A stretch of DNA of 64,000 nt from Candidatus Tepidiaquacella proteinivora (GCA_013348845.1 CP054675.1:124001-188000), one strand, 5' to 3'; shown: positions 40,939 to 55,909, counted from the stretch's first letter. Made by a program: numbers and translations. Notes: generated by a model not told the origin, from the sequence alone.

Positions 40939-42846
40939 ATGATAGATTTTATTTTTAAGCCATTCGAGGAAATGACGCCGGATGACTATGCAAAAGTTGG
41001 TTTTAAATCGGGGTTGGAAGTCCATCAACAGCTTGATACAGAAAAAAAATTATTTTGTCGTTGCCCTGCTGGTTATTATAGTAAGAATTATAATGCGGAG
41101 ATTCTTCGACATATGCGTCCTACTCTTTCCGAACTTGGTGAATATGATGGAACAGCGTTGATGGAATTCAAAACAAAAAAGAATATTATTTACAGAATTC
41201 ATCATGATACTGTATGCACTTATGAAATGGATGACACTCCACCCTTTATGATTAATGAAGAAGCTCTTGATAAAGCAATTGCAATTGGTATTTTAATGAA
41301 TTGCAATATCATAGATGAACTTCATATTGCCAGGAAACAATATCTTGACGGTAGTATTCCTACAGGATTTCAAAGGACTGCAATTTTTGGGGTAAACGGA
41401 TGGATAAAATATAAAGATAGGAAAATAAATATCATTCAAATATCAATTGAGGAAGATTCTTGCAGGGAAATTTCTGATATCGGACATTATCGTATTTATA
41501 ATACTGATAGATTGGGTATGCCACTAATAGAGACTGTAACAGCACCAGAAATGAGAACACCTTTTGAAGTAATGGAAGTGTGTGAAATTTTAAGCGCATT
41601 GGTCAGAAGTACTGGTTTAGTGCGTACAGGTGCTGGTGCTGCAAGAGAAGATGTTAATGTAAGTGTAGAAGGTGGAACCCGTATAGAGATAAAAGGTGTA
41701 CCGAGTATTAAAAGAATTCCCATACTTACTTATAATGAAGCGATGCGGCAATGGAATTTGTTAAGACTTCGTGAGGAATTACATAAAAGAGGTATTACAC
41801 CGGATACTTTTAAAGCAAAAGTCGATAATGTAACGAAATGCTTAAAGAAAACAAGGTATGAACCTATTAAAAATGCATTAAAAGAAGGAAAGTATATTAA
41901 TTGTGTTACGCTATTTGGCTTTAAAGATTTATTGAAATGGCAGACACAAACAAATACTTATTTTGCGAAAGAAATTTCAGATAGAGTTAGAGTAATTGCA
42001 TGTTTAACTACACTTCCAAATATTATTCATTCAGATAGTGCAAGTGAAACTATTTCTAATTCTGAATGGCAGGCTATTAAAAAAATGGTTGGGGCTTCTG
42101 ATAAGGACACCCTTGTTATTGTATGGGGAGATGAAAAAGATGTTGAGACTGGTGCTAATGAAATTATAATTAGAGCGAAAGAGGCAACAATAGGGATTCC
42201 TTCAGAAACAAGACAGGCTTTAAAAGATGGCACAAACGGCTTTGAGAGAATATTGCCTGGCCCAGATAGAATGTATCCGGATACAGATTTACCTCCGGAA
42301 AAGATTTCAATCGAAAGGGTAAACAAACTAAAGAAAATACTACCTGAACCTATATGGGAAAGAGAAGAATGGTATAAACAATTAAAATTACCCGCTGATG
42401 TTATCAGACCACTTTCAATTTCCAAATATGCGAATTTATTTAAGAAACTGGTAAAAGAATATAATATTAATCCGAAACTCGCAGCAATTGCTTTAATACA
42501 ATACCCAAAGAGAATAAGTAAGAAGTTGAAAAAATCCATTGCTTTTAATGAGGAAATTATTCTCAATATTTTCACTTTACTTAAAGACGGAATAATATCT
42601 CGTGAAGGTATATTATTGGAGATGATGAACTTTGCTACAACAGGAAAAATTAATGTGAATAATTCAGAGAAAAAAATTAACGAAAAGGAATTACAAAAAA
42701 TTATTGAGGAATCCCGTGCAGAGTTGTCAAAGATTAAACTTATAAATTCAGAAAAGAAACTTCAGGTTTTGATGGGCATTATTATGTCTAAAGTGAGAGG
42801 AAGAGTTGATGGAAAAAAAGTTTATAATCTAATAAAAGAAAATTAA
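40939..42846 (+). CDS. gatE: Glutamyl-tRNA(Gln) amidotransferase subunit E (archaeal type)
   Basis: tRNA-binding, kinase and amidotransferase subunit that converts Glu-tRNA(Gln) to Gln-tRNA(Gln), 635 aa. The GatB/E catalytic fold is seen in GFKSGLEVHQQLDTEKKLFC, RHMRPTLSELGEYDGTA, QYLDGSIPTGFQRT and EEDSCREI. The GatE-specific GAD (AspRS-like) insertion lies at about 300-430 and includes NGFERILPGPDRMYPDTDLP. The C-terminal YqeY-like tail ends in GIIMSKVRGRVDGKKV. Length and the GAD insertion distinguish it from bacterial GatB (about 480 aa). gatD follows 10 nt later. Classically GatDE is treated as archaeal, so transfer is likely. Confidence 0.96.
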   Translation: MIDFIFKPFEEMTPDDYAKVGFKSGLEVHQQLDTEKKLFCRCPAGYYSKNYNAEILRHMRPTLSELGEYDGTALMEFKTKKNIIYRIHHDTVCTYEMDDTPPFMINEEALDKAIAIGILMNCNIIDELHIARKQYLDGSIPTGFQRTAIFGVNGWIKYKDRKINIIQISIEEDSCREISDIGHYRIYNTDRLGMPLIETVTAPEMRTPFEVMEVCEILSALVRSTGLVRTGAGAAREDVNVSVEGGTRIEIKGVPSIKRIPILTYNEAMRQWNLLRLREELHKRGITPDTFKAKVDNVTKCLKKTRYEPIKNALKEGKYINCVTLFGFKDLLKWQTQTNTYFAKEISDRVRVIACLTTLPNIIHSDSASETISNSEWQAIKKMVGASDKDTLVIVWGDEKDVETGANEIIIRAKEATIGIPSETRQALKDGTNGFERILPGPDRMYPDTDLPPEKISIERVNKLKKILPEPIWEREEWYKQLKLPADVIRPLSISKYANLFKKLVKEYNINPKLAAIALIQYPKRISKKLKKSIAFNEEIILNIFTLLKDGIISREGILLEMMNFATTGKINVNNSEKKINEKELQKIIEESRAELSKIKLINSEKKLQVLMGIIMSKVRGRVDGKKVYNLIKEN

Positions 42847-42856
42847 TCCTATTTAG

Positions 42857-44239
42857 ATGAATGACTCTTATAAAGGATACAGAGGAGAATCTTTAGATGT
42901 TCTAAAAAATTTCTCAGCTCTTGTATGGAGTGATGTAGAAATAGAAACTGATAGTGGAGTTTTCAAAGGGATAATATTACCGCGTTCGGAAACTGCTGAT
43001 CCACATCATATTGTTTTAAAACTTCGTTCTGGTTATAATGTTGGTATTGCAGCAAAAAGAGTTAAAAATATAAAAGTTGAGGGTAGAAAGGAAGCTCATT
43101 ATAAAATTCCCGAAAAGGAATTTCCTTATGACCCTGTAAAGCCTAAAGTAAAATTGCTTGGTACAGGTGGTACAATTGCAAGTAGGTTAGATTATAGAAC
43201 AGGTGCAGTTATTCCGGCATTTACACCAGGTGAATTGTATGGTTCGGTTCCGGAATTGGCGGATATATGTAATCTTGAGACGGAAAAACTTTATGGTGTA
43301 TTCAGTGAAAATATGGGACCAGAGCAATGGATCGGAACAGCGCTTGCTATTGGAAGAGAAATAGAAAAAGGTGTGCAGGGTATTGTAGTCGGACACGGTA
43401 CAGATACAATGCATCATACAGCTGCTGCATTATCTTTTATGGTTCAGAATTCTCCTATTCCGATTGTTATGGTTGGTTCGCAACGGTCAAGTGATAGACC
43501 ATCTTCTGATGCTGCATTAAATTTAATGCATAGTGTTAAAACTGCTGCTGAGAGCGATATTGCGGAAGTTATGGTTTGTATGTTTGGACCTACTTCTGAT
43601 GAATACGGTTTATTGCATCAGGGTACAAGAGTCAGAAAGATGCATTCAAGCTATCGTTCTACATTCAGAACTATTGGAGATATTCCTATTGCAATGGTAA
43701 GCAGAGAAAAAATTACACCTTTGAGAACTGATTATAGAAAAAGAAGAAAAGATAAAAATGTAATTATTAATACTGCATTTGAAGAAATGGTTAGTATAGT
43801 ATATTACTATCCTAATATGAAGCCAGATATAATTGATTCATTAACTGATAATGGATATAAAGGTATTGTTATTGCGGGCACCGGCCTGGGACATGTTAAT
43901 AAGCCATTATATCCTGCTCTTAAACGGGCAAGTGATAAAGGTATTGCAATATATATGACGGTACAAACTTTATGGGGTTATGTTCAAATGTATGTTTATG
44001 ATACAGGTCGTGATATTATGGACTTGGGAGTTGTTCCAGCTGCTAATATGCTACCTGAAGTTGCTTATATTAAACTCGGTTGGGCACTTGGACAAACAAA
44101 TGATCTTGAAGAAGTGAAAAAAATTATGTTAACACCTATTGCAAGAGAAATAACCGAAAGAGAACCGAGTAATGGTTACCTGATATATCAGGGTGGCTTA
44201 CCTGAAGTTGAAGAATTTATTTCGAAATACTGGAAATAA
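42857..44239 (+). CDS. gatD: Glutamyl-tRNA(Gln) amidotransferase subunit D (archaeal type)
   Basis: Glutaminase partner of GatE, 460 aa. The N-terminal beta domain (about 1-90, with SALVWSDVEIETDSGVFKG and GIILPRSE) is specific to GatD. The L-asparaginase-like core has the nucleophile region LLGTGGTIAS (T103 and T106) and GHGTDTMHHT (T182, D183). Both AnsA-type catalytic blocks are intact. The N-terminal GatD domain rules out a plain asparaginase. It forms an operon with gatE and the downstream ammonia-lyase. Confidence 0.96.
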   Translation: MNDSYKGYRGESLDVLKNFSALVWSDVEIETDSGVFKGIILPRSETADPHHIVLKLRSGYNVGIAAKRVKNIKVEGRKEAHYKIPEKEFPYDPVKPKVKLLGTGGTIASRLDYRTGAVIPAFTPGELYGSVPELADICNLETEKLYGVFSENMGPEQWIGTALAIGREIEKGVQGIVVGHGTDTMHHTAAALSFMVQNSPIPIVMVGSQRSSDRPSSDAALNLMHSVKTAAESDIAEVMVCMFGPTSDEYGLLHQGTRVRKMHSSYRSTFRTIGDIPIAMVSREKITPLRTDYRKRRKDKNVIINTAFEEMVSIVYYYPNMKPDIIDSLTDNGYKGIVIAGTGLGHVNKPLYPALKRASDKGIAIYMTVQTLWGYVQMYVYDTGRDIMDLGVVPAANMLPEVAYIKLGWALGQTNDLEEVKKIMLTPIAREITEREPSNGYLIYQGGLPEVEEFISKYWK

Positions 44240-45990: not shown

Positions 45991-48423
45991 TTACTTCAAT
46001 AAAATCATTTTCCTGGTTTCAGTATAATTTCCACTCTGCATCCTGTAAAAATATACACCAGAGGGATATTCATATGCATTCAAATTTAACATATATGTTC
46101 CACTACTAAGGTGCTCGTCTATAATTTTTTTAATTTCTCTCCCTGTTAAATCAAATAAAGAAATTTTTACATCTGAATTCTTAGGTAAAGAGAATTTTAT
46201 TATGGTTGTTGGATTGAAAGGATTCGGATAGTTTTGAAATAATTGATAAGCTTTAGGAATTTCTGTAACTAATTTTGTAATATTAGATGGAGTGTCTATA
46301 TAATCAACAATTCTAAAATCATCTATATATATACCATCACCGGGGACACCAGAATCAGTGTAATAAGTAAATCTGAATTTCAGGTTTGATTGCCCGATAT
46401 AAGATGATAAATTTATCTGTTCATAACGCCAATACATTAATCCTATATAGGTAGGTTGTCCGGAAAATGTTTTTGTATATCTGCCGGAAAGGCTCGTCCA
46501 AGTTGATCCACCATTGGTACTTATTTGAATTCTAGCATAATCATAATCTGGTTCAGTGGCAAATTTAATTGCAAACTCAAGTTTTGGGTTGTTTTTACTT
46601 GAAAGATTAATAACCGGATTTAAAATGAATTGATTGTTTGTGCTATTTGATGAATTTCCCCATCTTGAATCAGCAAAACATTTATTACCTGTCCATGATG
46701 ATATATAGGTAGTATCCCATTGTTTTCCGGTACCAGATTTTGTCCAATTTGAAGTACCGTTTTCTGCGTTGTCTTGAAATATTATTTGAACAGCGCCCAC
46801 TGTAACATAGAATGTATCTTTTGATGCAGTTATTCCATTTTCTTTAATAGTTGCTACGAACTGAATATTATCACCGGTTGATGCTGAATTTGATATTTTA
46901 AATTTGAAGGGATTATTTGTAATTATCTTCGAACTTCTGGGTAATATACTATCATAATTTACTGAAGAAACAAGAGGGGTTGAATTAGAATAATTTGTAG
47001 TTAAATCAACTGTTACATTTTTTGCGGATTTTGTCAATCCTTTATTTCTTATTTCTAATAATAGGTTTAATGTGTCATTTTTTGTAACATAACCTTTTCC
47101 GGCAATCTGAAAATTTTTCATTTTAGGATAACTTCCTGCAACCCATGTTAAGTATTTCATTGATGGAAGAAAACCGCTGGATAGGGGAATTATGTATGAT
47201 TGATTTGACCAGAAGCTCGTTCCACCAATTTCCGGACCCCAGGCGAAAATACCGATTGAATGCATATAGTCCCGTGTTGTACCGCTTGAATAATAATTTA
47301 ACATTTCCTTTACGGTTCCGTAAATATAATCAGTGCCAGTCGTTCCTGTTGTTCTTGTTATCATTGGACAAAACTCAGAACTTAAGTCTTGATATAAATC
47401 ATATCGTATTGCGGTATCACAATATGAATATGGATTTAAAACTGAACCTGCTGTTGAATGAATTGAAAAAGCTACTTCTGGTTGCTTTTCTAAAAGGAAG
47501 TTTTTAATTGCCTGTGGTTCGGGTTCTGAAAACGCATAAGGTCCTCTATAATTTTCACTACTTGGGTCATTACTTGAACCATTGTCATATCCCCAACCAT
47601 AACTGTAATTTCTGTTTAAATCAACACCATAAACACCGGGGCTGTTTAATCTTCTGTTTTTTCTCCAATTGCCGCCACCATTTGGGTTTGTGGTTTGATT
47701 ATAAACATATCCATCAGGATTAGCAATAGGGACAAAGAATATCTCTCTGTTATTAACAAGATATTGTACTTCAGGATTTGTATTATAGTTTTCCAATAAA
47801 TACCACATATAATACAATTGCACTTCTAATGTTATCGGTTCTCGTGCATGATGTAATCCATCAAAATATACACCAGGTTCTGTTGCTGATTCATTTATCT
47901 CCGGATTATCAGAAATTTTCACTGCATATATTACTCTGTTTTCCCATGTTGTACCAATATTGATTTTTGAGGATATTAAGTTTGGATATAGATATTTCAT
48001 TGTATCAAGTTGTTGTATCATTTCATCATATTTATGGTATCCAGCCATAGTACCATAAGTATAACCAGTGATTCCATCTTTACTCATTAACTGTTTACTC
48101 TCGGATAATTCTGCTTCAGTTGGTTTTGGTAAATTATCAAAGTATTTTTTTATGTCATCTATTGTTATTTCATATCTATAACCAAGAGTTCTTAAAATTT
48201 CAATTTCTTTTTCTTTTAAGATTAGCTTTATACCTGTTTTTATATTTCCAAAATATTCTTCACAAAAAATACCTGCATTATTAATATTTATAATATCATT
48301 TTCCGAATTGACATAAATTATTACTTCACTGTATTTATCTTCTTGATTTAAATTCCCATCAGATATAAATGATAATGAAAAAAAAGATACAAATAGAGTA
48401 ATTAAAATTAATTTGTATTTCAT
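45991..48423 (-). CDS. T9SS-exported M14 zinc carboxypeptidase, multidomain
   Basis: Secreted carboxypeptidase T-like enzyme of 810 aa. A signal peptide (1-20) and propeptide precede the catalytic domain (about 115-430). Zinc ligands are H192 and E195 in DGLHHAREPITLE and the His in AFSIHSTAGS. GVDLNRNYSYGWG binds substrate, and the catalytic Glu lies in FAWGPEIGG. A CARDB-like beta domain (about 450-550) and a jelly-roll/MAM-like module (about 560-710, LEFAIKFATEPDYDYARIQI) follow. A type A T9SS sorting tail begins YQLFQNYPNPFNPTTIIKF. It is distinct in architecture from the M14 enzyme at 24611-26368. Divergent from the caspase operon. Confidence 0.94.
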   Translation of the reverse strand: MKYKLILITLFVSFFSLSFISDGNLNQEDKYSEVIIYVNSENDIININNAGIFCEEYFGNIKTGIKLILKEKEIEILRTLGYRYEITIDDIKKYFDNLPKPTEAELSESKQLMSKDGITGYTYGTMAGYHKYDEMIQQLDTMKYLYPNLISSKINIGTTWENRVIYAVKISDNPEINESATEPGVYFDGLHHAREPITLEVQLYYMWYLLENYNTNPEVQYLVNNREIFFVPIANPDGYVYNQTTNPNGGGNWRKNRRLNSPGVYGVDLNRNYSYGWGYDNGSSNDPSSENYRGPYAFSEPEPQAIKNFLLEKQPEVAFSIHSTAGSVLNPYSYCDTAIRYDLYQDLSSEFCPMITRTTGTTGTDYIYGTVKEMLNYYSSGTTRDYMHSIGIFAWGPEIGGTSFWSNQSYIIPLSSGFLPSMKYLTWVAGSYPKMKNFQIAGKGYVTKNDTLNLLLEIRNKGLTKSAKNVTVDLTTNYSNSTPLVSSVNYDSILPRSSKIITNNPFKFKISNSASTGDNIQFVATIKENGITASKDTFYVTVGAVQIIFQDNAENGTSNWTKSGTGKQWDTTYISSWTGNKCFADSRWGNSSNSTNNQFILNPVINLSSKNNPKLEFAIKFATEPDYDYARIQISTNGGSTWTSLSGRYTKTFSGQPTYIGLMYWRYEQINLSSYIGQSNLKFRFTYYTDSGVPGDGIYIDDFRIVDYIDTPSNITKLVTEIPKAYQLFQNYPNPFNPTTIIKFSLPKNSDVKISLFDLTGREIKKIIDEHLSSGTYMLNLNAYEYPSGVYFYRMQSGNYTETRKMILLK

Positions 48424-48665
48424 AGGATTGAGGTTTATAGTTTACAATACAATAATAGCAAAAAATTTAGTTTTGTTCAATTTATTATCTAATGATATGA
48501 TAGTTTTCATCCGGTATTTATAAATCAATTATAAATATATTAATTAATTTAGGAACAAAAATCCTGATTTTTGTATTTAAAGTATGTATGGTTTTTACTA
48601 ATATATTATATAATGATTTACAATTTTATTTAATTTAAAATAAATAATTTGGAGGTGATTTGGCT
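48424..48665. promoter_or_regulatory. Divergent regulatory region with strong Shine-Dalgarno for the caspase operon
   Basis: AT-rich spacer between the M14 peptidase and the operon at 48666. GGAGGTGAT at 48651-48659 is a near-full complement of the 16S 3' end, unusually strong for this window. It lies 6-7 nt before GTG 48666 and only 0-1 nt before TTG 48660, which favours the GTG. No clear promoter boxes were identified. Confidence 0.55.
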
Positions 48666-50636
48666 GTGATTAAAAAAATGATATGTATTTTATTGATTTT
48701 CATTCCAACCCTTATATATTCCCAAAAAAATTTAAATAAAGAATATGATATTTTATCTTTAACATTAGATATATATAGTCAGCTTAATAATCAAGACCCT
48801 TATGCTCCGATAAGTAGGGAAGAAATTGATAAAATCATAGCTGAAATTGGGAAAATATATGGTTTTCAAGACATTGAAAATATACCAAATGAGGAAGAGA
48901 GAGAGGAAATAAGAGATTCAATAGTAATGTTGATAAAAGAATGGAATCCCCCTATATGGAATTTAATAGGCGGGAAGGTTGATAAAATGATGCTTGAAAC
49001 AAGGAGTAGTATAATTGACAGAGTTTTCTTTAATATTATACCAGAATTAATTTCTCTAAAGTCATCAGAAAGTCTTCAATATTTTCTATATACTACTTTC
49101 ATTAAAAATTTACTATCTGAAGATGAATTAAAGGTTATGTTTCCCCTGACTTCAAGAACAATAGACAAAATGGATAAACTGAAGGTTACACTTTCCCCAA
49201 AAGCACTCTCAGAGTCATTCAAGACGGATTTAGCCGGGTTACCTAAAAATTTCCCCGCTATTTTTAAACTACCTAAATATAGAAGCTTAGTTGACAAAAA
49301 TCCTCATTTACTTCTGTTTTCCAGTGCTTCTGATTATTATAAATCAATAGTAAGTTTTGAAACTATTGATAATGCTAATTATAAATTATTTTACAATTTA
49401 TCGAAAGCGAGGAATAGTAATATTTATTCAAATTTGCATAGTTCCTTTTTATTATTTAATGAATTGTGCAGAGCATTGAAAGGTAAAACTTATTCAGAGA
49501 TTGAAGAAATAAAAAATAATTTGGAAAAAGGGGATAGATTTATCTTATTACTAATGGGTGTTTTCTGTGCTAAAAATAATGACGTGTTTTTTATTTCTAA
49601 TAAGGAGGTTACTTCAAGAGTGAGAGCCGGCAATGATGCGAGTTACAATATTAAAACAAAGAATGCATACAATGTTCCAATCATAGTAGGTGAACTTGTT
49701 CAGGAAGAAAGAATTTATGAGTTTAGAAATTATTTTAATAGATTTGCAGATATGTACTATGATTGTATAACTACGCTTGATACTATTAAATATTTTACCA
49801 ATTATGGCTACGGTGATCCGGTTGATAAAGAAGTATATTTTGATAAGGTTTTGGATTTTATTGAATTTGGTTTTGATCCAAGAAATTACAATTCAAATTT
49901 TGATTATTACGATTATGAAACGAAAAAATTTTTAGATTTATTAAAATATTACAGGGAAATAGATGATAATATCAAAAAAGATAAATACTTCGCTGCATTA
50001 ATGAATTCATTATATGCTTATGAAGATATTTGTTCAGTTTATTTGAGTGCTGATTCTTCTTTCGAAGTATCAAAAAACTTTTTCACAACTGTAAAAGTAA
50101 TAGGTGAATTGACCAGTGCTGATAATGATAACGATATAGCAAAAGTGTTAAATAACTACATCTTTTCATCAGTTGATTCATATTCAAAAAAAGAGTTACC
50201 ATTCTCAATAAATATAAATTCATATCTTGGTTATTATTACGGAAAGGAAGCGGAAAAAGTTACCAATCATTGGACACAAAACAGAGGGATAACTGTTCCA
50301 ATTGGATTAGAGTTTTCATTTGGGTTAAAAAACTGGGGTAGTTTAGGTTTGTATGTTCCGGTTTTAGATATAGGTGCTATAATGGATTTCAAATTAAATT
50401 ATGACAGCACTGAAACTGTTCCTGATATTAGATTTGAAAACATTATCTCTCCTGGTCTTTATGTTGTCTATGGCTTACCAAAAATTCCTTTTACAATCGG
50501 AGGCGGAGTTCAGTATTCACCACAACTTGGTAAAATAAGACTTGAAGGAAAAACTATTGAGCCTCGTAAACTGAGATGGAATGTTTTTATTGCATTTGAT
50601 TTACCACTTCTGAATTTATTTAAGAATGAGAATTAA
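48666..50636 (+). CDS. Exported protein of unknown function, first gene of the caspase operon
   Basis: Protein of 656 aa that I do not recognise. A signal peptide ends near LIYSQ. The middle (about 30-520) is mostly helical and acidic, with no transmembrane helix. The last 130 residues look like outer-membrane beta strands with alternating hydrophobics: INSYLGYYYG, TVPIGLEFSFGLKNWG, SLGLYVPVLDIGAI, ISPGLYVVYGLPKIPFTIGG, WNVFIAFDLPLL. It may therefore anchor in the outer membrane. The GTG start is chosen from the Shine-Dalgarno spacing. It overlaps the WD40-caspase gene by 11 nt, pointing to coupled translation and shared function. Confidence 0.75.
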   Translation: MIKKMICILLIFIPTLIYSQKNLNKEYDILSLTLDIYSQLNNQDPYAPISREEIDKIIAEIGKIYGFQDIENIPNEEEREEIRDSIVMLIKEWNPPIWNLIGGKVDKMMLETRSSIIDRVFFNIIPELISLKSSESLQYFLYTTFIKNLLSEDELKVMFPLTSRTIDKMDKLKVTLSPKALSESFKTDLAGLPKNFPAIFKLPKYRSLVDKNPHLLLFSSASDYYKSIVSFETIDNANYKLFYNLSKARNSNIYSNLHSSFLLFNELCRALKGKTYSEIEEIKNNLEKGDRFILLLMGVFCAKNNDVFFISNKEVTSRVRAGNDASYNIKTKNAYNVPIIVGELVQEERIYEFRNYFNRFADMYYDCITTLDTIKYFTNYGYGDPVDKEVYFDKVLDFIEFGFDPRNYNSNFDYYDYETKKFLDLLKYYREIDDNIKKDKYFAALMNSLYAYEDICSVYLSADSSFEVSKNFFTTVKVIGELTSADNDNDIAKVLNNYIFSSVDSYSKKELPFSININSYLGYYYGKEAEKVTNHWTQNRGITVPIGLEFSFGLKNWGSLGLYVPVLDIGAIMDFKLNYDSTETVPDIRFENIISPGLYVVYGLPKIPFTIGGGVQYSPQLGKIRLEGKTIEPRKLRWNVFIAFDLPLLNLFKNEN

Positions 50637-53600
50637 TAATTTAGTTTTAATTATTTTATTTTTATTATTTCGTTTGTGCTATTCACAAACTCCGGAATTG
50701 GTTATCCAGAATGGGCACAGTTCCGGAGCTTTGTTAATGGATGTGTCTTATGATGGCAGATATTTAATTTCAAGTGGTGCTGATATAAATTCTCTTATTG
50801 GTGAGGAATTTTCCGATTTACCTTATGATTTTTTTAAAAAGACTGATAAACAAAATGGTCTGATTATTTATGATTTATACTCCGGTAAAATTCTTAGATA
50901 TTGCCAGAATTCCAGAGGTGGTATTCATTCTATTGCTTCTTCTTTAATCGATTATTCTTTTGCAACAGGTGATTATTTCGGAAATATTTCAATTTTCGAT
51001 TTAAATGGTAATGTAATTAATTTTTTAAGTAAAACAACAGGAGATTTTACCCCTGTTTGTCTTGTAAATTATATAAGGTTTTTCAATAAGAAAAATTTTC
51101 TTGCTGCGGGTTACTCTGATTCTACTATATGTATTTGGGATTTAAGTGAAAAGAAAATTCAAAAAATATTTAAATTACCATCAAATGTAAAGTTGATGGA
51201 AATTTCTTATAAAGATAATTTTCTGATTTTTGGTTGTGAAAATGGCTATTCAGGGATTATAAGTTTAACAGGTGAGAATATTTCATTTTTTGATAAAAAT
51301 GATGGCGACATTATTGCTATTAGAATGACAAATGATGATAAATATGTTTATTCATTAAAAATAAATTCATTTCAGAATGAAATCCAGATATGGAATGTTA
51401 CAGGTTTAAAACTAGAGAATAAATTTTTAATTGATTCACCTATTTTCACGAGAGGCATATTTACAGCTGATTGTAAAAAATTATTTGCTTCGCCTTGGGT
51501 TGGTGGGTTAATTGAGATTAATTGTATAACAGGAAAAATAGAAAATGAAAATGTGTCTGAATCAAAAGAATTTACTTATGCATTATCAATTACTCCTGAT
51601 AGTAAAGTTTGTATTTTTTCTCTACCTTATGCAAAAAAAATTCAATTTTATGATTTAAGCAGCAAGAAAATAACAAAAACTATTTGGAATGAATTTGATT
51701 GGATTATTTCAGCAAATTTCCTATCAGACTCTAAGTCTTTTATTTCAGTTGCTGGAAAGAGTATTTATTGGTGGGATTTAGCTTATTGCAAAATTCAAAA
51801 CTCGCTAAAATTTGATGATGATATTTATTCTATTTCCTGCTCACAGGATAGTCGTTTATCTGCACTCGGAACCTCAAATGGGAATTTGGTTATTGTAGAT
51901 AATCAGAACAAATCATATAATCAATACAAATTTTCTGAATCACCAATATATGCAATTGAGTTTTCTGATATTAGTAAAAAGTTAGCTTTTGCTTCAGACA
52001 AAGTTTATATTTTCGATTTAGTAAATAATGAACTTATTAACTCTTTTAGGGCAGGTAATAAAACTATAAAAACAATAAAATTTATTTCTGAATCAGATTT
52101 TATTGTTGTTGGTGGATTTGACAAAGAAACAAAAATATTTAATTATAAGAATGGTGAGTTGGTGAAAATATTAGGTGAATTAAATGGTATAGTAATGTCT
52201 ATGGATATTGATGAAAAGGAATTAATTTCAATTTATTGTGCTGGTAAAGGCATTTATATCTATAATTATAAAAACTTTACTCTTGAAAAATTTATTAAAT
52301 ATGATAATTCTTTAATTACCTGTATAAAGTTAATTGAAGATAAAATGATTGCTTCAGATTGGAATGGAGAAATATATTTGATAGATTTAAAGACTGGTTC
52401 ATATAAAAAGTTATTTGCAGCTGGCGCTACTATTTTGAAAATAGATATATCACCTGATAAAAAATTCCTGATTACAGGTGGAACTGATGGTTGTGTGAAA
52501 TTATGGGATTTAAGGGAGAACATTGAATTGGCTAATTTTATTTCTGTTGGTAGTTTTGACTATTTAACTATTATACCTGAAAAATATTATACTGTATCTA
52601 AAAATGGTTATAGGGCTATTGCTTTCAGGATAGAGAATAGAGCGTATCCATTTGAGCAATTTGATTTGATATTTAACAGGCCGGATTTGGTATATAAAAA
52701 AATCGGTATCTTAACAGATGAAGAAATTGATATTTATAAAAAAGTATATGAAAAGAGATTAAAAAAAACAGGTTTTATTAATTTTAATCGTCCTGAGAAT
52801 TACTCAATTCCAGAAATTAGTATAATTAATAAAAACATAAAACATATCTCTGATAGTGATATTTTTAATCTTGAAGTTTCCGCAAATGATAACAAGTATT
52901 ATCTTAAAGAATTATTTATCTCAGTTAATAATGTTCCATATAAAAATATTATTTTAGATTCTAATAAATCTAAATTATATAAACTCGAAACTGAGATCCC
53001 TGTTGAATTATCTTATGGCAGAAATAAAATAACGGTATCCTGTTTTAATGAAAAAGGTATCGAATCATTAAATGAAGTTATAGAAATATTTTCATTAAAA
53101 GAGGTTAAACCTGATTTATATATTATTTCTTTTGGTGTATCAGAATATATTGATAGAAGCAGAAATCTAAATTATGCTTCTAAAGATGCAAAAGATTTTT
53201 CTAATTTGTTTCTTTCAGATGAGGTAAAATATAGGTTTAAGGAAGTAAAAGTAATTACATTAATTGATTCACAGGTTACAAAAGAAAATATTTTGGAAGT
53301 CAAAAAAATTCTGCTAAATACAAAAATTAATGATGTTGTAATCTTATTTTTTGCAGGCCATGGTTTACTTGATAAAGATGGGAATTATTATTTCGGGACT
53401 TATGATATTAATTTTGATAAGCCAACACAAAGAGGAATTAATTATGACGAGATAGAATCCTTACTTGATGGTATAAATGCAAGGATAAAAATTCTTTTTA
53501 TGGATTCCTGCCATTCTGGTGATTTAGATGAAGATGAGTATAAAAGTATAAAACAGATTAAAGATAAATTAGATACATCAGATTTCCGGTTGGTAATTAA

Positions 53601-53961
53601 CAGTGGAGTGAGGGGTGATGAAATTACCGAGGGAAGTGTTAATCAAGAGCGAAGCAAATCTTTATATGAATATATGAAAGAATTATTCAATGATATTTCA
53701 AGAACTACTGGTGCTATAGTTATTTCAGCTTCAAGTGGAATATCTTATGCTCTTGAATCGTCTGAGTTAAAAAACGGAGTTTTTACATATTCTATTATTA
53801 AGGGATTAAAGAATAAAGAGGCAGATTTAAATAAAGATGGGAAAATTTTTATAAGTGAATTAAAAGAATATATTATTGATAATGTTAGTAGATTAACTAA
53901 TAACGGGCAGAAACCAACGGTAAGAAAGGAAAATTTTGAATATGATTATCAAATTTGGTAA
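50626..53961 (+). CDS. Exported WD40-repeat protein with C-terminal caspase (C14) domain
   Basis: Protein of 1111 aa. A signal peptide (1-21) is followed by WD40-type blades over about 25-680, for example STICIWDLSEKK, SIYWWDLAYCK and DGCVKLWDLRENI, enough for two propellers. A linker with beta character (about 700-830) precedes a caspase-like peptidase fold from LYIISFGVSEYIDRSRNLNY. The catalytic dyad is H912 in FFAGHGLL and C962 in LFMDSCHSGD. Substrate-pocket residues follow in VISASSGISYALES. The C terminus, ADLNKDGKIFISELKEYI, looks like a calcium-binding dockerin/EF-type helix pair common after bacterial caspase domains. It overlaps both neighbouring genes. Confidence 0.92.
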   Translation: MRINNLVLIILFLLFRLCYSQTPELVIQNGHSSGALLMDVSYDGRYLISSGADINSLIGEEFSDLPYDFFKKTDKQNGLIIYDLYSGKILRYCQNSRGGIHSIASSLIDYSFATGDYFGNISIFDLNGNVINFLSKTTGDFTPVCLVNYIRFFNKKNFLAAGYSDSTICIWDLSEKKIQKIFKLPSNVKLMEISYKDNFLIFGCENGYSGIISLTGENISFFDKNDGDIIAIRMTNDDKYVYSLKINSFQNEIQIWNVTGLKLENKFLIDSPIFTRGIFTADCKKLFASPWVGGLIEINCITGKIENENVSESKEFTYALSITPDSKVCIFSLPYAKKIQFYDLSSKKITKTIWNEFDWIISANFLSDSKSFISVAGKSIYWWDLAYCKIQNSLKFDDDIYSISCSQDSRLSALGTSNGNLVIVDNQNKSYNQYKFSESPIYAIEFSDISKKLAFASDKVYIFDLVNNELINSFRAGNKTIKTIKFISESDFIVVGGFDKETKIFNYKNGELVKILGELNGIVMSMDIDEKELISIYCAGKGIYIYNYKNFTLEKFIKYDNSLITCIKLIEDKMIASDWNGEIYLIDLKTGSYKKLFAAGATILKIDISPDKKFLITGGTDGCVKLWDLRENIELANFISVGSFDYLTIIPEKYYTVSKNGYRAIAFRIENRAYPFEQFDLIFNRPDLVYKKIGILTDEEIDIYKKVYEKRLKKTGFINFNRPENYSIPEISIINKNIKHISDSDIFNLEVSANDNKYYLKELFISVNNVPYKNIILDSNKSKLYKLETEIPVELSYGRNKITVSCFNEKGIESLNEVIEIFSLKEVKPDLYIISFGVSEYIDRSRNLNYASKDAKDFSNLFLSDEVKYRFKEVKVITLIDSQVTKENILEVKKILLNTKINDVVILFFAGHGLLDKDGNYYFGTYDINFDKPTQRGINYDEIESLLDGINARIKILFMDSCHSGDLDEDEYKSIKQIKDKLDTSDFRLVINSGVRGDEITEGSVNQERSKSLYEYMKELFNDISRTTGAIVISASSGISYALESSELKNGVFTYSIIKGLKNKEADLNKDGKIFISELKEYIIDNVSRLTNNGQKPTVRKENFEYDYQIW

Positions 53962-55909
53962 AATATTTTCATTATTATTAATTTTTTTCATAATTGTTGG
54001 AAATAGTTTTCCTCAGGAAAAAAGAGGAATTATTATTGCTATTTCTAAATACAAAGATGAAAATTGGCGTGAAATACATTCACATAATGATGTTGATTTA
54101 ATAAAAAATATTTTATTATCACAGGGTTTTAAGGAAAATAATATTTTAATTTTAAAGGATTCTGCTGCTACAAAAAGAAATATTCTTAAATCATTTGATT
54201 ATTTACTTTCTGAATCAAAAGTTGGTGATATATTAGTGATTCACTTTTCAGGGCATGGACAAAGAATTTTTGATGATAATGATGATGAAAATGATTTTGC
54301 AGATGAAGCTTTAGTAACTTATGATGCTTATCAAAAATGGTCTGAATTTTATAAGGGTGAAAATCACTTAAGAGATGATGAAATTTCAGAATATTTAAAT
54401 AAATTTAGAAGTAAAATTGGGCAAAGTGGTAATGTTATTTTATTTATAGATGCTTGTTATAGCGGAAGTATTACAAGAAGTTCAGAATTCTATAGAGGTA
54501 TTGATGATATTTTCGGCCCACCTGATTTTAAAGAGAAAATTAATAGAATTATTTCAAATCCATCAGAACCAACCGGAATATTTAAAAGTTGTAAAACAGC
54601 TGAAGAAGAAGAGGGAAATTTATTAGCAAATCTTGTTGTATTTACATCTTCGAGAAATAATGAAAGGAGCAAAGAAATAACAGACGGAGAAAAATTTTAT
54701 GGCTCATTGAGCTATGGACTTTCCTTAGCTTTTTCAGAGATTAAAGGTGATGAAACATATAGAATGATTTATGACCGTGTGTATTCATTTATGAAATTTA
54801 AAGCAAGATTAGAACAGGTTCCATTAGTTGAAGGTGATGTTGACAATATTGTCTTTGCAAATAATTTATTACCAACCGAATCTTATTTTAAAATTATTGA
54901 AAGAAATATTTACGGAGAATTAGTAGTTAATGGTGGAAGAATAACAGGATTAAATGATAGTACAGTTTTGGGTATATATTCGGAATCATTCAGATATCCG
55001 GAACCAAACGAACAAATTACTACAGGTATAATATACAATGCAGGGAATTTCAAATCTTTGATAAAAATTGAAGCTTTAGATAAATTATCAATAAATGATT
55101 TAGGAAAATACCGTTTGTTTATTTTAAAGGAAGGGGTTGCTATAAAAAAATTGCTCGTTGCTTTTGATAATGTTGAAGAGAATTTTAAAAAGCAGATTTT
55201 AAATGAATTAAATAATTTAAAATATTTTGAGGAAAATAGTGTTACCCCTGATTATATCTTAACTAATTTTAATCATAATAAAATCGAAATAAATGACTCT
55301 GTTTTTCTTTTTAAAAATGGAAATAATCTTAAGTTTATAAAATCTTTCAGTGTTTCTTCTGCCGAAACACCCGAAAAAATTAAGTCAATATTAAAATACC
55401 TGTATAAGAGGGATATGTTAATTGGTTTTGAAATGCAAAGTGAATATTATAATGTTGAAATAAAAATACACAATTTATCTGCCGGTGAAATTAATTCTTC
55501 CTTATTTCAGGAAGGAAATCAATTTGATACAATTAAAATTATCATAAAAAATATAGGTGAACGTTCGGGGTATCTTACGCTAATAAATATTCAACCTGAT
55601 GATTCTATTAAGCAATATATTCCAAAACAAAATGAAAATATTAGCCAATATTTTCTTGAACCAGGTGCGGTAGTTGAAAAGAAGTTTAGAAACTCAAAAT
55701 TGGGTGAAGATATATACAAAGTATTTATAACTAAAGATTATATTGATTTTAATTTTATTATCGATTCAAAAGCAGGTAGGAGAGCGGCTGACTTAACAGA
55801 ACTTGAGGTCCTATTCGATGATATTGATAAAGGTTTTAAACCAAGAGCGAACTTAAATGTAGCGGGGACAACAAAACAAATTTTAATAAATGTTAAGGAA
55901 AAGAAATAA
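53942..55909 (+). CDS. Exported metacaspase-like (C14) peptidase with C-terminal beta domain
   Basis: Protein of 655 aa. A signal peptide ends near NSFPQ. The caspase p20 region starts RGIIIAISKYKDENW. The catalytic His is H105 in HFSGHGQR and the Cys is C172 in LFIDACYSGS, in the type I metacaspase arrangement. EALVTYDA between them matches the family. From about 330 onward there are beta-rich segments, the last (about 560-650, YLTLINIQPDDSIKQYIP and the PGAVVEKKF segment) resembling DUF4384, a common partner of bacterial caspases. I chose ATG 53942 over TTG 53936. The start lies inside the end of the WD40-caspase gene (20-nt overlap). Confidence 0.93.
   Translation: MIIKFGKIFSLLLIFFIIVGNSFPQEKRGIIIAISKYKDENWREIHSHNDVDLIKNILLSQGFKENNILILKDSAATKRNILKSFDYLLSESKVGDILVIHFSGHGQRIFDDNDDENDFADEALVTYDAYQKWSEFYKGENHLRDDEISEYLNKFRSKIGQSGNVILFIDACYSGSITRSSEFYRGIDDIFGPPDFKEKINRIISNPSEPTGIFKSCKTAEEEEGNLLANLVVFTSSRNNERSKEITDGEKFYGSLSYGLSLAFSEIKGDETYRMIYDRVYSFMKFKARLEQVPLVEGDVDNIVFANNLLPTESYFKIIERNIYGELVVNGGRITGLNDSTVLGIYSESFRYPEPNEQITTGIIYNAGNFKSLIKIEALDKLSINDLGKYRLFILKEGVAIKKLLVAFDNVEENFKKQILNELNNLKYFEENSVTPDYILTNFNHNKIEINDSVFLFKNGNNLKFIKSFSVSSAETPEKIKSILKYLYKRDMLIGFEMQSEYYNVEIKIHNLSAGEINSSLFQEGNQFDTIKIIIKNIGERSGYLTLINIQPDDSIKQYIPKQNENISQYFLEPGAVVEKKFRNSKLGEDIYKVFITKDYIDFNFIIDSKAGRRAADLTELEVLFDDIDKGFKPRANLNVAGTTKQILINVKEKK

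Follow-up and report, generated by a model that had tools for sequence, protein, structure and literature searches.

What does a bacterium do with two exported caspases encoded directly behind a large protein that matches no catalogued family? The question is raised by three genes, here called P1, P2 and P3, within a 64,000-nucleotide stretch of Candidatus Tepidiaquacella proteinivora (GCA_013348845.1 CP054675.1:124001-188000; hereafter the window), whose genome is a single contig of 2.40 Mb. An earlier interpretation made from this stretch alone, the sequence-only reading, took the three products for a co-expressed set of exported proteins, perhaps an envelope proteolytic cascade. Comparison across genomes moves the emphasis from the caspases to P1, whose relatives usually lie beside a protease, and the fold of that protease has changed repeatedly. 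Tentatively, we favour an explanation in which P1, anchored in the outer membrane, stays constant while the proteases that it partners are interchangeable; the window would carry the caspase version of this module.

The association between P1 and proteases is apparent from gene order. In 73 of 94 non-redundant P1 loci the gene at position -1 encodes an S8 or trypsin-like protease (subtilase in 55, trypsin-like in 18), a proportion that overstates the rate for the whole family, as the main locus set (79 loci, L067-L145) was fetched with the profile of one P1 subgroup that is itself S8/trypsin-associated. A further position, -2, holds such a gene in 8 of the 94 loci, while at all other positions (-2 excluded) S8 or trypsin-like genes account for 2 of 874 (Fisher p ~1e-87 against the 73 of 94); because this control is drawn from the same loci it corrects for genome content. 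The less biased figure, given how the 79 loci were obtained, comes from the class and phylum samples, which were not selected by subgroup: here 14 of 23 loci have a peptidase of the S8, S1, C14 or M48 type as immediate same-strand neighbour. The arrangement is tight, usually with a 4-nt overlap or a gap of <=15 nt between the protease gene and the P1 homologue. Pfam S8 is found in 52 of the 79 tight upstream genes, and the S8 triad is intact in 45 of 50 aligned subtilases. In other genomes P1 adjoins a subtilase, an M48 peptidase or a trypsin-like protease, the last often with membrane segments fused to it; near some P1 copies there are also genes for papain, CHAP, GH25, amidase, patatin or nuclease proteins.

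When the neighbour type is mapped onto a tree of 95 P1 proteins, 22 changes are required, against a mean of 36 after shuffling and a minimum of 4; the count is inflated because the class of loci without a peptidase includes truncated contigs. Well supported branches by themselves force at least 12 changes for S8 and at least 7 for the trypsin-like type, and the two caspase loci group together in a clade supported at 100%. Such repeated changes mean that P1 is kept while the fold of the peptidase changes, and because its relatives retain a peptidase neighbour of changing fold, P1 is linked to proteases in general. Since the family usually sits beside some protease, the caspases of the window look like one local version of a widespread module. 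The sequence-only reading had bound P1 to caspases and had named as its refutation a protein widespread without them, which is what the loci show, a caspase lying next to P1 only in the window and in one congener (94 related loci plus the window).

Much of what had been read from the window itself is borne out. The three genes are co-directional and overlap by 11 nt (P1/P2) and 20 nt (P2/P3) exactly as described, and as both flanking genes run on the opposite strand they make up an isolated three-gene unit, for which co-expression is well supported as a prediction. Scans for promoters and terminators found them hardly or not at all more often than in shuffled sequence. Signal peptides were called from hydrophobicity and family conservation: each protein begins with a hydrophobic leader that ends before a glutamine (P1 LIYS/QK, P2 RLCYS/QT, P3 NSFP/QE), the leader type usual for the phylum. 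This glutamine is invariant or nearly so throughout the P1 family, and 93 of 94 P1 homologues carry a leader. The proposed export and envelope location of the three proteins are supported. P2 combines WD40 propeller repeats with a Peptidase_C14 domain (E 2.4e-15, 57.3 bits), and P3 carries a Peptidase_C14 domain (E 6e-15, 56.0 bits) ahead of a long C-terminal region with a weak DUF4384-like stretch at residues 539-577; the cut-off of the model (Pfam PF00656, MEROPS C14) is 21.4. The His/Cys dyads of both are intact in the aligned motifs, at precisely the residues first named (Table 1). By domain score and dyad P2 and P3 are members of caspase family C14, and proteolytic activity is predicted for both. 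WD40 is the commonest extra domain of prokaryotic metacaspases, and probable signal peptides were noted among them in 2012 (PMC3501461). A DUF4384-like tail is also found on an exported caspase of genome G004, whose gene neighbours that of an exported trypsin-PDZ (DegP-like) protease (L165 2735-6461, minus strand).

The claim that did not survive is that the three proteins form one conserved set. In the congener G001 (locus L009) a metacaspase homologous to P3 (37% identity) is encoded 3 nt downstream of the P1 relative; the P1 and metacaspase pair is kept at 34-37% identity, and P2 is absent. The P2-like WD40-caspase layout recurs in four genomes of the family to which the window genome belongs, away from P1, which was not found in any of them. 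The co-occurrence that had been proposed as a check is thus seen for P1 with P3 and fails for P2, and a conserved three-protein caspase set is rejected. Because its relatives occur without P1 and it is missing in the congener, P2 seems to be mobile or a later addition to the P1-P3 pair. The independent behaviour of P2 is also what would be expected if three unrelated exported genes had come to overlap by accident, but the P1-P3 adjacency retained in the congener at ~35% identity, and peptidase neighbours of P1 homologues far beyond chance, make this reading, already disfavoured, very improbable. As for the cascade, two proteases of one fold do not alone show one. Two observations on P2-like proteins stand apart from P1. 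In two of these four genomes (L161 3791-5831, minus strand; L163 8518-10624, minus strand) the P2 homologue adjoins a small exported protein and a membrane sensor of the CHASE2 type, which suggests another conserved WD40-caspase module. The window genome encodes a third caspase (C1:1720684-1721271, minus strand), WD40-fused and with no P1 nearby, whose WD40 units are nearly identical to one another and which adjoins a short WD40 fragment gene.

On sequence comparison P1 is the founder of an undescribed family. It has no Pfam match above threshold and belongs to no NCBIfam or PADLOC family. With the P1 sequence alone a first contig scan gave zero matches, and a search found the protein in 5 of 99 relatives, the window genome counted; a five-sequence profile then recovered it from 13 of 391 genomes of the class and 16 of 395 of the phylum (~4% of the phylum). 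Two congeners have it and a third does not. The 79 named loci are mostly from Bacteroidota, with single loci in KSB1 and Aminicenantes, and the family extends to Flavobacterium, Chitinophaga, Mucilaginibacter and other cultivable genera. Similarity is full-length and strongest over the C-terminal 150 residues; D188, K508, G522, G547 and D645 are invariant.

So patchy a distribution, together with the exchange of catalytic partners and the patatin, CHAP, GH25 and nuclease genes near some P1 copies, is what an anti-phage or suicide system might show, in which P1 would sense envelope attack and the protease would kill the cell; related cytoplasmic systems with interchangeable peptidases have been proposed as conflict systems (PMC7159879). 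The surroundings speak otherwise. Only 3 of 105 flanking genes match PADLOC models (E <= 1e-15), which leads us to reject a defence island, and PADLOC recognises only a generic caspase; the window operon sits between metabolic genes, and tblastn with a P1 homologue found no relatives on phages or plasmids. We consider a defence role quite unlikely.

What kind of protein is P1? An AlphaFold model built from 89 sequences (mean pLDDT 78.9; it replaced an unusable model from 5 sequences, pLDDT 52) predicts ~480 helical residues, up to about residue 510, followed by eight strands (residues 514-653), most of which have alternating hydrophobic residues. The best natural structural matches (VIA-align) are OmpA, OprF, OmpW, OmpX and Ail, with weak scores of Z 5.4-5.6, and the top matches as a group are mainly small outer-membrane barrels. 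The outer-membrane-like C terminus proposed for P1 is supported by the eight modelled strands and by the nearest folds, at a weak match; judging from the model, this part of P1 is likely an outer-membrane barrel. In number and placement the predicted strands of P1 agree with those of barrels of the OmpX/OmpA/OmpW type, which are the nearest solved folds, but P1 adds ~480 helical residues before the predicted barrel, and no sequence relation to them was found. Solved relatives of P1 by sequence were rejected, as only coiled-coil-like chance matches to the helical part came up.

How could an outer-membrane protein cooperate with proteases that in most relatives appear to lie on the cytoplasmic side? 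Many cassettes have, two places upstream of P1, a gene for a protein with three apparent membrane segments, for which the members scanned gave no Pfam family, fused trypsin domains apart. From the charged residues near the segments, its C terminus, and the trypsin domain sometimes fused there, would be cytoplasmic. Where this putative inner-membrane protein accompanies S8 (35 loci), the subtilase is leaderless in 34, and none of the exported-protease loci (caspase, M48 and three trypsin loci with a leader) has the gene. This would be consistent with a transmitter that is required only where the protease is inside. It occurs in 29 of 395 phylum genomes, 7 of them with P1 (co-occurrence p 4e-5), and was not found in the window genome or in G001. 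Missing as it is from many members, it is rejected as a strict or defining part of the module. One cassette has an extra gene with a GH25 lysozyme domain (L058 4489-5376) between the inner-membrane protein and subtilase genes.

The inner-membrane protein also leads to a further alternative, namely that the module accompanies extracellular contractile injection systems or acts as a lysis cassette made of an inner-membrane protein, a leaderless lytic enzyme and an outer-membrane protein. A relative of the inner-membrane protein lies directly beside sheath and Pvc16 genes (L182 1640-6435), at L054 (8564-13817) the genes behind a P1 homologue are a patatin-like one and, next, Pvc16, and another P1 locus is 27 kb from a Pvc16 gene, while SH3-like, GH25, CHAP and amidase partners would fit wall-acting effectors. 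However, Pvc16 (PF14065) was not found in the window genome or in the P1-bearing congener G001, co-occurrence across the phylum is weak (6 of 16 against 70 of 379, p 0.10), and the caspases here are exported, not leaderless. As a companion of injection systems the module is rejected for the window and weak for the P1 family, and the alternative in either form is highly improbable.

In the favoured explanation P1 would be exported and inserted in the outer membrane by its C-terminal barrel, and its long helical part would extend into the periplasm, where P1 may hold or gate the partner protease until an envelope event releases it; surface ligands, contact with phage or competitors, and envelope damage are candidate events. 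The protease of most relatives, either SH3-like/subtilase or a trypsin joined to membrane segments, would be on the cytoplasmic side, often linked to P1 through the three-segment inner-membrane protein. The window genus lacks this link, and its proteases are exported caspases, so that P1 and the caspases would share the periplasm, and P1, whether sensor, scaffold or gated substrate, would act there. P3 would be the core enzyme and P2 the later addition, its WD40 propeller perhaps binding a substrate or partner.

The same arrangement can be turned round. P1 might itself be what the protease cuts: a gated pore of the envelope, or a lytic protein, that proteolysis would open, the protease being a replaceable activator. 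A constant member beside swappable proteases is the pattern expected of a shared substrate, in a published precedent trypsin-like and caspase proteases replace each other around a single conserved pro-nuclease (PMC12799240), and in the window the two sides would meet in one compartment. Neither a cleavage site nor an autoinhibitory segment was recognised in P1, though, no pore-forming fold was found among its structural matches, and in most relatives the subtilase is leaderless but P1 exported. We regard this as unlikely, and as the main rival to P1 as protease-controlling partner.

Several findings weigh against the partner reading itself. The barrel match reaches only Z 5-6, and Foldseek returned no match for the P1 model at E <= 0.001. 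The caspase version is carried by two loci only, 16 of 95 P1 loci have no recognised peptidase neighbour, and the headline count of protease neighbours carries the subgroup bias described above. The subtilases beside most P1 homologues have no signal peptides, and it is hard to see how these would touch a P1 in the outer membrane directly. The topology proposed for the inner-membrane protein is deduced from charge, and 19 leaderless S8 loci lack its gene; either the link between an inside protease and a transmitter is not strict, or the transmitter goes unrecognised at these loci.

A more ordinary role would be housekeeping secretion or surface-protein processing, in which the proteases mature exported proteins and P1 serves as an anchoring or assembly factor. 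The organism makes proteins tagged for the type IX secretion system (T9SS): divergent from the caspase operon lies a gene for an M14 carboxypeptidase (window 45991-48423, minus strand) whose MAM-like domain is accompanied by a T9SS type A sorting tail, and exported caspase-family proteins are known in bacteria (PMC3501461). A family scan found no T9SS C-terminal Por secretion tail on P1, P2 or P3. The system is moreover absent from most relatives, one congener included, and swapping across unrelated protease folds would be unusual for a dedicated processing enzyme. The probability that we attach to this alternative is low.

The logic of the module has parallels in described systems. System 3 (trypsin/subtilisin with NucA) and System 4 (the EACC1 membrane component with a caspase) of Kaur et al. 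(2020, PMC7159879) are likewise small operons in which a constant component is combined with interchangeable peptidases. They differ in that the constant component is single-transmembrane or cytoplasmic, whereas P1 is predicted to be an exported helical and barrel protein, and neither in that paper nor in its 2021 sequel did a text search turn up an outer-membrane component. In System 4 EACC1 is membrane-associated; EACC1, EAD and NTPase were not found here, P1 precedes a caspase gene and has no EACC1 match, and P2 and P3 both fall below the cut-off of the NCBIfam EACC1-associated caspase model (74.7 bits for the P2 caspase, cut-off 140). Canu and other gated nuclease-protease pairs, among which Hachiman and AVAST are also named, similarly have one constant partner around which trypsin-like or caspase proteases are swapped (PMC12799240), but the partner in Canu is a cytoplasmic nuclease of the metallo-β-lactamase fold, while P1 is barrel-like, predicted to be exported and devoid of any recognised enzymatic domain. 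Singly, P2 and P3 are of kinds known among prokaryotic metacaspases, and the retrieved passages of PMC3501461 describe no conserved barrel-like partner. We found no outer-membrane protease-partner system in the open-access literature; an earlier description in subscription papers is possible.

Table 1. Features of the P1-P2-P3 operon, in window coordinates.
Feature	Position	Strand	Extent	Remarks
P1 ribosome-binding site	48651..48656	+		GGAGGT, 9 nt before the GTG at 48666; from sequence
P1 gene	48666..50636	+	656 aa	GTG start; predicted exported protein, founds an undescribed family of putative protease-partner envelope proteins
P1 signal peptide	48666..48722	+	residues 1-19	hydrophobic leader, predicted cleavage before nearly invariant Q20
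P1 all-helical region	48750..50195	+	~residues 29-510	AlphaFold model
P1 C-terminal 8-stranded barrel-like domain	50205..50624	+	residues 514-653	AlphaFold model, weak matches to outer-membrane barrels
P2 gene	50626..53961	+	1111 aa	predicted exported WD40-propeller/caspase fusion
P2 caspase (C14) domain	53131..53829	+	residues 836-1068	dyad H912/C962
P3 gene	53942..55909	+	655 aa	predicted exported, metacaspase-like, long C-terminal region
P3 caspase (C14) domain	54029..54832	+	residues 30-297	dyad H105/C172

Elsewhere in the window, at lower coordinates, two adjacent genes (40939-42846 and 42857-44239, plus strand) score 549 and 522 bits, both above the curated cut-offs, for GatE and GatD, the subunits of the archaeal-type Glu-tRNA(Gln) amidotransferase, though the genome is bacterial.

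A constant protein with exchangeable proteases is known from cytoplasmic bacterial immunity, and the P1 family would place the constant partner in the envelope. In its broadest form the proposal is that Bacteroidota and their relatives have a widespread protease system, so far undescribed, that spans the envelope and in which an outer-membrane barrel protein would sense surface events and control an interchangeable protease (subtilase, trypsin-like or caspase), by way of an inner-membrane transmitter where the protease is cytoplasmic and directly in the periplasm in the window; we hold this generalisation to be doubtful. The family is genetically testable because it is present in cultivable genera, and it supplies an annotated module for many genes that are now called hypothetical. 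For the window the implication is that a caspase can fill the place of the protease outside the cytoplasm, which bears on the roles of bacterial caspases beyond cytoplasmic cell death, and if the proposal is true, the caspase version would represent an extracytoplasmic caspase pathway in bacteria.

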